The translations under genes and the position numbers were made by a program. Source: a virus. Taken from it: DNA of 33,150 bases. Shown here one piece after another: positions 10,287 through 16,159 of the stretch. The notes under the pieces were generated by a model. That model searched no databases. It saw only the letters and a list, made by a program, of their open reading frames with translations, and was not told the DNA's origin. The DNA lies in IMG/VR virus record IMGVR_UViG_3300025138_000179, positions 1-33,150 of that record; one strand, 5' to 3'. Each line of letters starts with the position of its first letter. The first letter of the stretch is position 1.

Positions 10287-10589
10287 ATGCAAACAATAAT
10301 AACAAAGTATTTAGGCCCAACAAATAATAGAGGCTCTAGGATTAAGGCTATGCAATCAAGCAAGGGTTTTAATGGTGAAAGAGCTTATTCTATTACACGC
10401 TCGTATGACTACTCACTTGAGGTTGATGAAAACCATACGAAAGTAGCGAAAGAGTTCGCCGATAAAATGGGTTGGACAGGCGATTGGATTAGCGGCTCTA
10501 TTGATAATCACGGAGGTTATGTCTTCGTCAATTCATATTGGAAACATGAGACAAACTCTTTCGCTTGCTCTGTAAAAGAGGTGTCATAA
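10287..10589 (+). CDS. Conserved small protein preceding ArdC (KYLGPTNNRGSRIKA type)
   Basis: This is a 100-residue protein starting MQTIITKYLGPTNNRGSRIK, with SYDYSLEVDENHTKVAKEFA and KMGWTGDWISGSI, ending in GGYVFVNSYW and a short tail. The 'TKYxGPTNxRGSRIxA ... K.GW.G' pattern is a familiar hypothetical protein of plasmids and phages, often near antirestriction genes; its function is unknown to me. The ATG at 10287 is preferred over a GTG at 10272 because GGAAGGA precedes it. It is the first gene of the plus-strand operon, directly behind the operator-bearing promoter, and its stop overlaps the next start as TAATG. Confidence 0.75.
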   Translation: MQTIITKYLGPTNNRGSRIKAMQSSKGFNGERAYSITRSYDYSLEVDENHTKVAKEFADKMGWTGDWISGSIDNHGGYVFVNSYWKHETNSFACSVKEVS

Positions 10590-11479
10590 TGTCAAAAGCA
10601 AATGAAGCATTAAACGCAATAGCTCAGACTGTAATTACTATGATGAATGAGCATGGCACAAACTGGACAAAGCCTTGGAAGGATGCAGTCAGGGTTCATG
10701 GTCAACCAACAAGTGCCAAGAAAAGACCTTACACTGGTATCAACAGAATTAGCCTTGGATTGTCTATGGCAATCCATAGCCATACCTCGCCAGTGTTCGG
10801 AACTTTTAAACAATGGAAGTCCCTTGGTGCAAATGTCAGAAAAGGCTCTAAAGGTTACAAAGTAATATTTTACACAACAGTGATCGTAAAAGATAAAGAC
10901 ACTGACAAGGATAAGGCTTTACCATGTGCCAAGGTTTATACTGTCTTTAATAGTGATCAAGTTGAGAATTGGAATGGCTCTTGGTTAGAAGATGATATTG
11001 AAGAGTTTGACCAACAGTGGAGCAACATAAACGACGTTGACCAGTTCATCAATTCAATTGGCGCTAATATTACTTTGGATAATTCAAATAGTGCATTTTA
11101 TAGACCGTCAACTGACTCTATCCATATGCCAAACAAGGCACAATTTGACAATGCACAAGGCTATTATGGGACATTATTTCATGAGCTCGTGCACTGGACA
11201 GGCCATGAGACAAGAGAAGATAGAAAGCTTAACACTCGTTTTGGCTCTGATAAGTACGCATTCGAGGAGCTAATAGCTGAGTTAGGTGGTGCAATGCTAA
11301 GTGGTATTACTGGCGTTGAAGCTACACCAAGAGAAGACCATGCAATCTATCTTAACAATTGGATGCAGTGCCTAAAGGATGATCCAAGAGCTATTCAAAA
11401 AGCTTGTAGCTTAGCTGAAAAGGCTTCTCAGTTTGTCCTTAACAGCTCGTCAATAATAGTAATGAAAGAGGCCGCTTAA
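10589..11479 (+). CDS. ArdC-like antirestriction protein with zincin domain
   Basis: This is a 296-residue protein with two parts. Residues 1-120 match the ArdC N-terminal ssDNA-binding (DUF1738) type: NWTKPWKDA, PYTGINRISL, FGTFKQWKSLGANVRKGSKG. Residues about 140-290 form a metallopeptidase-like domain with LFHELVHWTGH (H198, E199, H202) and a downstream FEELIAELGG supplying the likely third zinc ligand. ArdC-family proteins protect incoming plasmid or phage DNA against restriction; whether peptidase activity is needed is unsettled. The ATG at 10589 overlaps the previous stop, with AGAGGTG upstream. Early, operator-controlled expression fits protection of DNA on entry. Confidence 0.88.
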   Translation: MSKANEALNAIAQTVITMMNEHGTNWTKPWKDAVRVHGQPTSAKKRPYTGINRISLGLSMAIHSHTSPVFGTFKQWKSLGANVRKGSKGYKVIFYTTVIVKDKDTDKDKALPCAKVYTVFNSDQVENWNGSWLEDDIEEFDQQWSNINDVDQFINSIGANITLDNSNSAFYRPSTDSIHMPNKAQFDNAQGYYGTLFHELVHWTGHETREDRKLNTRFGSDKYAFEELIAELGGAMLSGITGVEATPREDHAIYLNNWMQCLKDDPRAIQKACSLAEKASQFVLNSSSIIVMKEAA

Positions 11480-13200: not shown

Positions 13201-13704
13201 TCACCCTCTAGGCATCCCGAACACATCACCAAGCGCATCTAAGCACAGCCGTAAGGCCACTATTCCACCTTTAGGATCGTGGCCTTGTTGTTTTGCCCAT
13301 TCGTTTGCACTAGCACCCTCTACAACCACCCATTGCGCCACGTCTGACAGATCCTTGCCTATTGTCCTGAGTGCAGCAAGATAATCCGTAAAGGCATCGT
13401 GTCCTTGATCATCGTTTCCGCGTGTCCCATCCACTATGTTTGCATCGTATGACGCTGTAAGCTTTTGTGCTCTCCCTGCCCTACGCCACAAAGCATACAA
13501 CTTCATTCCGGCCTCAAACTGGCGTCTGTTGATCTGTTCACGCGAGTAATACCTATCTAACGGAGTCTGAACCGTCACACGCATCCGTTTAGGGCTTCCC
13601 AGACGCTTATCTGTGTTTTCGTAAGCGATACCTGAAGTATGCTGCAAACGCTCTCGTGTGCCGAAATCAGACGGCGTGTGGATCGGTTTCTTGCTCTTCA
13701 CCAT
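13201..13704 (-). CDS. DUF6456-like phage protein, possible regulator
   Basis: This is a 167-residue protein. TPLDRYYSREQINRRQFEAG in the middle and a C-terminal GGIVALRLCLDALGDVFG match what I remember of the alphaproteobacterial DUF6456 pattern: a '...PL..L...i...qf.AG..l' segment, then a terminal helix pair like that of sigma-4/HTH proteins. Such a protein placed last in the replication operon might control late genes, as antiterminator-type proteins do; this is inference. The ATG at 13704 lies inside the end of the preceding gene (38-base overlap) and has AAGGA upstream. Confidence 0.6.
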   Translation of the reverse strand: MVKSKKPIHTPSDFGTRERLQHTSGIAYENTDKRLGSPKRMRVTVQTPLDRYYSREQINRRQFEAGMKLYALWRRAGRAQKLTASYDANIVDGTRGNDDQGHDAFTDYLAALRTIGKDLSDVAQWVVVEGASANEWAKQQGHDPKGGIVALRLCLDALGDVFGMPRG

Positions 13705-13966
13705 TCTCTGTCCTTAAACTTAGTGCCAACGCTAGATAATTTATTGCATCCAAAATATTGTCCTCGCGCCAGTTAAGATCGTTTCTCCCTAGCTTAAACT
13801 CCACCATATCCATTGCGACATCGCTTGGTGTTATTCTTTCACCACGCCTAATAGATGAACGTATAGCCAACTGCTTAAACAATTCATCAGCGTGTCCATG
13901 CTCTCCACCACGTTCAATTAATATTTCTTTGCATGTTTCTAAAACTTGTAATGCGGCCTTACTCAT
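13667..13966 (-). CDS. DUF6378-like small phage protein
   Basis: This is a 99-residue protein. ILIERGGEHGHADELFKQLA, followed by RITPSDVAMDMVEFKLGRND and DNILDAINYLALAL, matches the small phage protein type with 'ERGxxHGd...... iTp.dva..m..lKlaR.. ....D...DaagYlala', which I associate with DUF6378. The helical layout with paired acidic residues resembles MazG-like folds, but no activity is established. The ATG overlaps the upstream stop by eight bases. It belongs to the downstream end of the replication operon. Confidence 0.68.
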   Translation of the reverse strand: MSKAALQVLETCKEILIERGGEHGHADELFKQLAIRSSIRRGERITPSDVAMDMVEFKLGRNDLNWREDNILDAINYLALALSLRTENGEEQETDPHAV

Positions 13967-14393
13967 TTTCTAATTCCCATTTTCTGCGTTTAATCATTTC
14001 TATTTGCCATTGCTTATATTTCGCCAGATTAGGTGCGTTTAAAATCTTTCTCCGATTAGCAATTCCTTCAAGCATTCCAATACATTTAATTTCACTCACC
14101 ACAGCTAAAAAATCCTTTTCTTTTAAATCAGCAAAATCAGACTTATTTCGGGTCAAGGTTTCGGGACAGGACATGACAGTATATAAATACTGTCCTGTTG
14201 TCCTGAGTTGTCCCAAAATAACCTCACCTTGTCCTAGCCGTGTCCTAGCCGTGTCCCCAAGTAGGCTAAGTATGTTGTTTTTATTGACTTTTTTCAGGAC
14301 ACCATCTGGGACATCAGGACACAGCCATTTTAGCTTTAAAACTCTCGTGTCCCCGCCGTGTCCCAGACCAATTTCGAACGGATATTCACCCAT
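13959..14393 (-). CDS. Unknown protein whose gene carries the TGTCCY array
   Basis: This is a 144-residue protein, from ATG 14393, which overlaps the primase-helicase stop as TGATG. It has MGEYPFEIGLGHGGDTRVLK, CPDVPDGVLKKVNKNNILSL in the middle, and a basic helical end KYKQWQIEMIKRRKWELENE. No family recognised. The coding DNA is unusual: it contains thirteen of fourteen clustered TGTCCY motifs in both orientations and in different reading frames, so the DNA rather than the protein seems to be constrained. By analogy with lambdoid O genes, it may encode an origin-linked protein or simply host the origin. Confidence 0.6.
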   Translation of the reverse strand: MGEYPFEIGLGHGGDTRVLKLKWLCPDVPDGVLKKVNKNNILSLLGDTARTRLGQGEVILGQLRTTGQYLYTVMSCPETLTRNKSDFADLKEKDFLAVVSEIKCIGMLEGIANRRKILNAPNLAKYKQWQIEMIKRRKWELENE

Positions 14394-14438
14394 CACCCAA
14401 ATGCCTCCAAAATCAACCCTTTTTCGAGCTTTAGGACA
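14164..14438. repeat. Cluster of 14 TGTCCY motifs (iteron-like array)
   Basis: TGTCC or its complement begins at 14164, 14169, 14191, 14199, 14209, 14230, 14241, 14252, 14297, 14309, 14317, 14348, 14359 and 14434. In every case the sixth base is a pyrimidine (TGTCCT or TGTCCC). Several spacings are near one to four helical turns (11, 11, 21, 22, 31, 45). Two copies form an 11-bp tandem repeat at 14230-14251. T-rich stretches flank and interrupt the array (14275-14294). Confidence 0.7.
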
Positions 14439-16159
14439 CCCTGATCTATCATCCTTTTTATGTGTCTATTTGCTGTTCTTTGAGAGCATTCTAGCTCCAA
14501 TGCCACCGCTTCCTTGAGGTCAGATCTGCTCACCTCGCCAAAGTCATTCATCCTATCGAATTGCTCTTTGACCACCTGTTCTGCGTAATCTGGTGATTTC
14601 TTATCCATTGGTTTATCTGGTGTCATTTCAAGCACGAGTGAGCTTGTGTCCTGACCATCTGCATCCACCAAAGACATAGACAATTTCAGGAACGCCAGTG
14701 GTTCGCTTTTCTCTTCATCTTTCATCTTGGTGGGCGTGAGTAATATCTTAAAATCGCCCCATTGTTCGACGCGATATTCAGAGTCTAGAGAGCCATGCAA
14801 AGCGTATCCACCACGCCCTCTATCCTTATTCTGGTGTCCTATGTGGTGGACAATCATCACAGTGGCTTGATAGCGGTCCTTTAGCCTGTCACAGACTTGA
14901 ACATACGCCATCATATTTTGATTATTTTCCTCTCCATCCATTGTTCTACTGAGTGTGTCGAGCACAATAAGGTTGAGCTTACCTATTTGCTCTTGGAGTG
15001 CGTCTAGCTCATTACATAGGTGTAGTTCACTATCTGGATCGTTTAGGATCACGCTACGATTGCTTTTGGCGAATGGTACACCTGTGAGGTCTTGGTTGAA
15101 GTTCTTACACCAAGCCGCGACACGTTTAGCGAACCCTGCATGCCCTTCCCCTGCGATATAGGCAACGCTACCTTTTTGCACCTCTAGTTCGTGGTATGGT
15201 TTGCCTGTGGCGATACACAGAGCCATATCAAGGGCTACGAACGTTTTACCTGATCCCGCCGCACCAAAGATCATGGCGAGGGAGTTTTCTTCTATAACGT
15301 TTTTGATCATCCACTTGGTTGCGGTCATGCGTAGATCGCTCACCATCGTGAAGAGTGTGTCGGGTTTTTTGACTGAGGTTAGGCTTTTGTGGACTGCCTT
15401 TAGTCCTAGCTGTTGGTGTAGATCGTTAAAGTCTTGTCCTTGTAGTGGTGGCACGACATAGGGCAGCTTTGTTTTCTTTGCTGCTTCTATCCCTTTTTCA
15501 TCGTTATCAGCCGCTACGACGAGTTCAAACTGAGGAAACGCCGTTTGTAGCTTGGTGCAGACTAAAGGTAAGTTCCCTGCGTCCAATGCGAATATACAGG
15601 CACATCCAGGTTGGGACATGGCTATACTTGCTGAAGTTGCCCATCCTTCGGCTACATAAGTGCGTCCTTTGGTGAGCTTACCACACACACCGAAAACACC
15701 TTCTGCCTTATTTAAGCCAGTGCTAAATAGTTTCTTTCCATCTGGTGAGATTGTTTGTTCACCCACACGTTGTCTGTGTATGTTGAACAGTGGAATGACT
15801 ACGTTGTGACCTTCAAGCTTTGCACCTAACAGATCAACGCCTTTTTTCTCATTATATGGCCTAGTATCTTCCACGTTAAATTCTTCTTTAGGTTGGAATG
15901 TTAAAACGTTGTCCTTGATAGGATCGAGTGAGCACAACAGACCACGTTTGGCGAGTTCGCTTTGGATTGCTTTAAAGTCACCACATTGTCTGCAATGGGT
16001 CTTGATTAATCCGTTGTGGTTGGTAATCCAGAATCTGTCTGTCCCACCACAGTTTACACAACAGCCATGCCACTCGCCTTTTGCGGTTTGCTTGAGGTCT
16101 AAACCATCTATGATCCGTTGGGCGTACTCACTCCAATAAGGTTGTTCGAAGTCAGCCAT
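14393..16159 (-). CDS. Primase-helicase (zinc finger, TOPRIM, RepA-like ATPase)
   Basis: This is a 588-residue replication protein with domains in order. A zinc ribbon has C34-x2-C37 and C56-x2-C59. A TOPRIM primase core has E171 in YVAEGWATSASI and D218-N-D220 in VVAADNDEKG. A RecA/RepA-type helicase has Walker A GAAGSGKT (299-306), a GEGH motif at 337-340, Walker B LIVLDTLSR (D401) and HH at 438-439. The C-terminal 60 residues look like a winged helix (FGEVSRSDLKEAVALELECS, then QRTANRHIKRM). It should unwind DNA and prime synthesis for the host polymerase, as no phage polymerase is visible. It lies after the SSB-like gene with a four-base gap. Confidence 0.9.
   Translation of the reverse strand: MADFEQPYWSEYAQRIIDGLDLKQTAKGEWHGCCVNCGGTDRFWITNHNGLIKTHCRQCGDFKAIQSELAKRGLLCSLDPIKDNVLTFQPKEEFNVEDTRPYNEKKGVDLLGAKLEGHNVVIPLFNIHRQRVGEQTISPDGKKLFSTGLNKAEGVFGVCGKLTKGRTYVAEGWATSASIAMSQPGCACIFALDAGNLPLVCTKLQTAFPQFELVVAADNDEKGIEAAKKTKLPYVVPPLQGQDFNDLHQQLGLKAVHKSLTSVKKPDTLFTMVSDLRMTATKWMIKNVIEENSLAMIFGAAGSGKTFVALDMALCIATGKPYHELEVQKGSVAYIAGEGHAGFAKRVAAWCKNFNQDLTGVPFAKSNRSVILNDPDSELHLCNELDALQEQIGKLNLIVLDTLSRTMDGEENNQNMMAYVQVCDRLKDRYQATVMIVHHIGHQNKDRGRGGYALHGSLDSEYRVEQWGDFKILLTPTKMKDEEKSEPLAFLKLSMSLVDADGQDTSSLVLEMTPDKPMDKKSPDYAEQVVKEQFDRMNDFGEVSRSDLKEAVALELECSQRTANRHIKRMIDQGVLKLEKGLILEAFG

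Follow-up and report, generated by a model that had tools for sequence, protein, structure and literature searches.

A putative iteron-type replication origin directly behind a RepA-type primase-helicase gene in a virus genome and its relatives, with a repeat motif that follows the helicase C-terminal domain

In lambda-type origins the iterons are found in coding sequence of the replication region, inside the gene of a separate initiator, O. Phage P4 depends on a second, distant element (crr), and the helicase of its alpha protein is of the SF3 type. Alpha unites a Toprim-type primase, a helicase and a winged helix in one protein and recognises origin repeats (PMC4234260). In the SaPI Rep/ori system and in SCCmec Cch2, the C-terminal domain of the initiator helicase binds short iterons located directly downstream of its own gene (PMC7581432); Cch and SaPIbov1 Rep belong to DUF927, Cch2 and SaPI5 Rep to Primase_Cterm/D5 (PMC7581432). 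The IncQ plasmid RSF1010 encodes the helicase RepA, and its origin combines iterons with the short stem-loops ssiA and ssiB, which act as priming sites (PMC4234260). ORF904 of pRN1, a primase-helicase with a C-terminal winged helix, acts on a structured element that follows the gene encoding it (PMC4234260).

The replication origins of most environmental phages are unknown. The window considered here, i.e., the whole stretch of DNA analysed, is the 33,150-base IMG/VR virus record IMGVR_UViG_3300025138_000179 (positions 1 to 33,150), in which the following features were delimited:

Positions 14163 to 14438, no strand assigned: iteron array of 14 TGTCCY/RGGACA sites in both orientations (from sequence counts, shuffles and relatives).
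Positions 14175 to 14194, no strand assigned: palindrome GACAGTATATAAATACTGTC close to the far end of the array, with inverted iterons on both sides (from the sequence and relatives).
Positions 14393 to 16159, minus strand: Toprim primase and RepA-type (AAA_25) helicase of 588 amino acids (Pfam AAA_25 1.9e-36, Toprim_3 7e-9; PHROG primase/helicase families).

Based on sequence comparison, the array and the palindrome very probably represent a replication origin bound by the C-terminal winged helix of the adjoining primase-helicase, the binding and the origin function being both inferred. The 588-residue Toprim/AAA_25 protein is proposed to be initiator, helicase and primase in one. In the corresponding model, its C-terminal winged helix would bind the TGTCCY (RGGACA) sites, with many subunits placed about one helical turn apart and in opposite orientations on either side of the palindrome; the bound subunits may then assemble helicase rings facing the palindrome, after which the palindrome or the neighbouring A+T-rich DNA would open, the helicase would load (ring loading is likewise an inference) and the fused primase domain would lay the first primers. 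As the specificity domain adjoins its binding sites, both would be inherited and exchanged together as a cassette, and such exchange would give every phage lineage its own origin code.

Exactly 14 TGTCC starts occur on the two strands between 14164 and 14434, followed in all cases by C or T, the site reading RGGACA on the coding (minus) strand. A preliminary description of this DNA had considered this number far above chance, which was confirmed by the counts and shuffles: the stretch 14163-14438 is the densest in TGTCC of the whole window, and TGTCCY occurs 43 times across the window versus 25.0 +/- 4.5 in dinucleotide shuffles, none of which exceeded 35; most of this excess comes from the cluster. 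Comparable clusters are not common in the rest of the window, the highest 5-mer count in any 275-bp window outside the array being 11, for the A/T-rich AATAA or ATATA. The spacing near whole helical turns that had also been noted holds in relatives, where the distance between sites of the same orientation has a mode of 10 bp. Looser TGTCC copies, previously reported for the neighbouring genes, are indeed present, only part of them being conserved among relatives; these sparser TGTCCY copies beyond the array (13363-13764, 14647 and 14835) could be auxiliary sites. The cumulative GC skew, which the preliminary description had proposed to compare, falls nearly throughout the window without a turn at the array and was uninformative in this respect, and scans of the window with Rfam and for tRNAs gave no match.

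In principle the repeats might merely result from coding sequence, from codon bias or from a protein repeat, as 13 of the 14 sites lie inside one ORF of 145 codons and the remaining one at the end of the helicase gene. However, as first described, the sites are spread over different reading frames and both orientations, and shuffles of the codons that preserve the protein encoded by this ORF (5,000 trials per codon scheme) never produced 13 sites, whether drawn from the phage codon usage (mean 1.6, maximum 6) or from the ORF's own codons (mean 3.6, maximum 9). Moreover, 59 of 113 relatives lack a forward frame that stays open over the full length of the array. Among close relatives, variation at third codon positions in the array part affects 5 of 26 columns within motifs and 19 of 54 outside them, which is the direction expected for constraint on the motif, with a small effect. 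The codon shuffles and the arrays without an open frame rule out a protein repeat or codon bias, and an origin of the repeats as a coding by-product can be virtually dismissed.

The ORF that contains most of the array was compared with its relatives:

Positions 13959 to 14396, minus strand: ORF of 145 codons that overlaps the stop of the helicase gene and whose N-terminal part is seen as translated origin (from ORF calls and comparison with relatives).
Positions 13959 to 14123, minus strand: conserved small domain, C-terminal ~55 amino acids, LEGIANRRKIL...RK.ELE (from comparison with distant relatives).

The start of this ORF overlaps the stop of the 588-residue primase-helicase gene, and clear sharing with distant relatives is confined to about the last 55 residues of its product. 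In the loci L035 and L037 the LEGIANRRKIL domain forms a separate ORF of ~53 amino acids behind the array, and in the window, L034, L036 and phage CRP-406 the ORF extends back through part or all of the array. Since only the last ~55 residues are shared with distant relatives, the N-terminal part is best seen as translated origin, the putative origin of the window being embedded in the variable N-terminal part of the 145-codon gene. Searches of the 145-residue protein of the window against Pfam and PHROGs gave no match. The preliminary description held that phages encoding the same protein without the cluster would refute its reading; no such case was met, and in L037, whose ORF has no internal array, an array is located just upstream of the ORF. 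The iteron-type origin inside coding sequence that it had put forward is the reading best supported by the comparative evidence, with origin function remaining an inference. Genes with DUF6456 and DUF6378 domains follow the region (window positions 13201-13704 and 13667-13966, minus strand), and an ArdC-like anti-restriction protein with a zincin-like metallopeptidase domain is encoded at 10565-11479 (plus strand).

The full-length 145-residue protein was found in 16 other viral contigs with 88-95% identity, and nearly all array sites are retained in these close relatives. One of the usual changes is an A/G exchange at the first base of RGGACA, and in several of them one site has shifted by one base and is nonetheless retained. 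In four contigs (L013, L014, L015 and L016) a stretch of ~20 bp between sites has been swapped for unrelated sequence. The two versions of this stretch, GACAGTATTTATATACTGTC and GCCCAATATCTTTATATTGGGC or a near variant, are both palindromes, indicating that the dyad is kept while its letters change.

A wider set of loci was gathered by similarity to the helicase or, for close relatives, to the 145-residue protein, without use of the motif. Among the matches of the search made with the helicase only are the phages CRP-406, Alteromonas PB15, Idiomarinaceae 1N2-2, Salicola CGphi29, CRP-823 and CRP-831, and all six have a dense array, with sites in both orientations, at or just behind the end of their helicase gene. 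Their motifs mostly differ from that of the window, GGGACA of CGphi29 being close to it; the eighth record in this comparison, ct76p945 (L033), has no such array behind its helicase gene. The position of the array beside the primase-helicase gene, pointed out in the preliminary description, is not peculiar to the window phage: in 170 of 214 loci the top 6-mer in the 400 bp around and behind the helicase stop exceeds that of every other 400-bp window of the same locus, with counts commonly of 8-18 versus a control mean near 3.5. Motifs vary with the phage and include RGGACA, CTACAAA, GTATAAA, CGGTAC, GTACCA and others. The loci are partly redundant, with 158 distinct C-termini among the 214, and a 6-mer present seven or more times was found for 113 of these 158. 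In about a fifth of the loci, no clear array is apparent within the stretch that was tested. In L054 and L056, 13-14 copies of TACCGA are located ~850-1050 bp downstream of the helicase and not directly behind it. No repeat array is present in the retrieved DNA of a group of loci whose CGphi29-like helicases have an unusual tail (L082, L086, L096, L097, L100, L102 and L111), and replication may start differently in these.

The palindrome is a further recurrent element of these loci, and in the window it is adjoined by a candidate unwinding element:

Positions 14000 to 14149, no strand assigned: A+T-rich stretch just beyond the palindrome, candidate unwinding element (32-35% GC versus 42% for the window).

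In many arrays a palindrome, usually centred on CT(T/A)TAG, is located towards the far end, about 90-210 bp behind the helicase stop. Stems with 6 or more base pairs around a CT[AT][TAC]AG centre were detected in 48 of 111 arrays compared to 2 of 1820 control windows. In 75 loci with a dyad by a looser rule, 7.7 iterons on average precede the palindrome and 1.8 follow it, and the nearest iterons on either side are inverted in 70 of 71 scorable cases versus 388 of 1010 of all neighbouring pairs. The palindrome of the window lacks the common CT(T/A)TAG centre, and sister lineages have other arms (GCCCAATATCTTTATATTGGGC) but keep the dyad. The Roseobacter phages CRP-823 and CRP-831 have the palindrome AAACCCTTTAGGGTTT in common despite their different iterons, suggesting that it is probably read by something besides the variable helicase tail. 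By its likeness to the ssi hairpins of RSF1010 (PMC4234260), it can be inferred that the palindrome may be a melting or priming site. The 100 bp after the arrays are on average 5 points below the GC content of their locus (112 loci), a modest difference that does not constitute a functional test.

The part of the primase-helicase proposed to read the iterons corresponds to the following segments:

Positions 14396 to 14593, minus strand: predicted C-terminal winged helix (about residues 523-588), proposed to read the iterons (from AlphaFold2, Foldseek and motif co-variation).
Positions 14444 to 14482, minus strand: predicted recognition helix, about residues 560-572, SQRTANRHIKRMI (from the AlphaFold2 model; the helix stretch is identical in L034).

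AlphaFold2 predicted for residues 489-588 of the window protein a winged helix of the order helix-helix-helix-strand-strand, with pLDDT mostly of 91-94, and a similar fold was predicted for a CRP-type tail. Winged-helix domains, several of them solved with DNA, make up most of the Foldseek matches obtained for the C-terminal models; with weak E-values (0.017 and above), these matches provide support for the fold only. A sequence search of solved structures returned none for the helicase, profile matches being not convincing, and a direct scan of bacterial genomes gave no confirmed relative of the helicase. Pfam detected no DUF927, Primase_Cterm/D5_N or SF3 family in the primase-helicase, and found AAA_25 and Toprim_3 instead. 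In the CRP family, the predicted recognition helix (76-89 of the C-terminal fragment) contains 77, 80, 82, 78 and 81, which are among the residues with the best motif association; residues 95, beside the wing, and 106 likewise have high ranks. The predicted winged helix comes together with strong motif co-variation, and its iteron specificity is inferred, with no binding data.

In pairs with at least 70% motor identity (n=522), motif similarity correlates with C-terminal identity with a rho of 0.82, or 0.70 when controlling for the motor, and once the C-terminus is known motor identity contributes a partial correlation of -0.002. Over all pairs the partial correlation is 0.20, a small value because distant pairs carry little signal, motif similarity being scarcely informative below about 50% C-terminal identity. 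This value was reached by 0 of 200 label permutations, a count that is not a strict probability, since the sequences within families are related. All the listed pairs with near-identical motors (88-99%) but different motifs have C-termini that are only 22-68% identical, as exemplified by L119 and L125 (motor 97%, tail 39%). Conversely, L034 and the window share the motif CAGGACA and the unchanged ECSQRTANRHIK helix with 60% identity in the C-terminal domain and 53% in the motor. Between L164 and L161 most iterons have switched jointly, at matching positions, from GGTACG to GTTACG, and the helicase tail has changed with them; by comparison of the two sequences, this is the concerted evolution of an origin, insofar as the inferred origin function holds. 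L158 has nearly the tail of L161 and an array shortened by an apparent deletion, and may be a defective or chimeric contig.

The cultured Roseobacter phages offer a natural experiment on tail and motor. The array is made of CTACAAA in CRP-823 and CRP-811 and of GTATAAA in CRP-821 and CRP-831. Over the first ~600 helicase residues CRP-823 is nearest to CRP-821, but over the last ~110 residues it pairs with CRP-811, and CRP-821 with CRP-831 (97-100%, versus about 70-83% between classes), so that the arrays group by the C-terminus and not by the first ~600 residues. DNA identity between the classes is mostly 90-100% until roughly -350 relative to the helicase stop, often 56-90% from -350 to +200, with about 40% at the array start, and mostly 82-100% again beyond +200. 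Judging from this profile, the C-terminal domain and the array were swapped jointly as one ~550-bp cassette between nearly identical flanks. On the basis of these alignments, the motif follows the predicted C-terminal winged helix of the helicase and not its motor domain.

The tail codons adjoin the array, and hitchhiking could explain part of their co-inheritance and may inflate the co-variation. This adjacency, together with the presence of small HTH genes near many of these helicases, leaves room for another protein (the 145-residue product, an HTH protein encoded nearby or a factor of the host) that binds the iterons, the tail co-variation being linkage only. This is nevertheless considered highly improbable: CRP-823 and CRP-831 differ in motif despite the near-identity of their exonuclease (100%), SSB (99%) and downstream protein (91%); in the CRP phages the downstream gene, which is just as adjacent, does not track the motif as the tail does; and the motif-associated residues are for the most part within the recognition helix predicted for the helicase. 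The preliminary description had named the 144-residue protein and the primase-helicase as possible binders, and the evidence points to the second, through its C-terminal winged helix; the first is disfavoured, as the conserved small domain of this protein is common to phages with different motifs. Neighbouring HTH genes are not excluded as the source of the binder; the CRP swap points to the helicase tail instead.

Helicase similarity alone also led to two plasmids in which an array immediately follows the gene, one of the CGCGAGGTT type and one of the TGCGGAAG type. The first, pRS11DPr4 (CGCGAGGTT type), has a non-phage gene list, which includes genes for restriction, partition and toxin-antitoxin functions and in which no further replication initiator is annotated; the PLSDB gene tables are incomplete and therefore the plasmid evidence is only suggestive. 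The second looks like a phage-plasmid. These plasmids bear on the proposal that the array is an operator or silencer by which the helicase tail or another regulator controls downstream transcription, with replication starting elsewhere. Such a role would suit the location of the array at the start of the downstream genes, DNA-binding sites in two orientations would fit a regulator, and autoregulation by the helicase would also account for the tail co-variation. It is, however, very unlikely, given that often 8-18 sites and a palindrome flanked by inverted iterons exceed the needs of an operator, that the position behind the helicase is kept while the downstream genes change, and that the same layout is present on plasmids where the helicase appears to be the replication gene. 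Neither the silencer nor the partition site that the preliminary description had offered as alternatives to an origin gained support.

An origin read by the adjoining primase-helicase, if true, would be predictable behind the gene of RepA-type primase-helicases in many phages, its specificity being relatable to the helicase tail. The many motifs read by homologous domains would represent a natural data set on how winged helices change their targets, and dozens of natural domain/motif pairs would allow a protein-DNA recognition code to be derived. Such origins would also bear on the sharing or exclusion of replication machinery among phages or phage-plasmids. With the cassette swap that occurred naturally in the cultured Roseobacter phages, the protein-DNA pairing is directly testable. 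The paper on Roseobacter phages (PMC12629253) makes no mention of iterons or repeats and uses "origin" once, in an unrelated sense, and no earlier description of such origins was found among the open-access papers searched, which is weak evidence of novelty. With some reservation, it is considered likely that these loci belong to a widespread and apparently undescribed class of phage and plasmid origins, in which a Toprim/RepA-type primase-helicase reads its own downstream iterons via an exchangeable winged-helix cassette and a palindrome, often with a common CT(T/A)TAG centre in phages with different iterons, would serve as universal melting or priming site.

That initiator helicases can read iterons following their own gene is a known principle, which here would involve a different helicase family (AAA_25/RepA). 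The window shares with SaPI Rep and Cch2 a short-repeat array directly downstream of the helicase gene and differs from them in the protein, which is of DUF927 or Primase_Cterm/D5 in those systems and combines an AAA_25 RepA-type motor with a Toprim primase in the window; furthermore, the putative origin of Cch2 has three iterons (PMC7581432), whereas the phage arrays often have 7-18 and a recurrent palindrome. With P4 alpha it has in common the fusion of a Toprim primase to a helicase with a C-terminal winged helix (predicted in the window protein), but the motor is AAA_25/RepA without SF3 match and the array is directly behind the gene. Membership in either the SaPI Rep or the P4 alpha group fails because the window motor is of the AAA_25/RepA type. 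In pRN1 an archaeo-eukaryotic primase, an SF3 helicase and one 100-nt stem-loop without iterons are found instead. Lambda-type origins likewise have iterons within coding sequence of the replication region, but those of the phages studied here follow the helicase gene and overlap an accessory ORF. Like RSF1010, the window joins a RepA-type helicase to iterons plus a palindrome, an ssi-like action of the latter being an inference. No RepC-like gene was found among the scanned neighbours, and unlike the separate RepA, RepB' and RepC of RSF1010, the helicase, the primase and the proposed iteron binder of the phage form one polypeptide.
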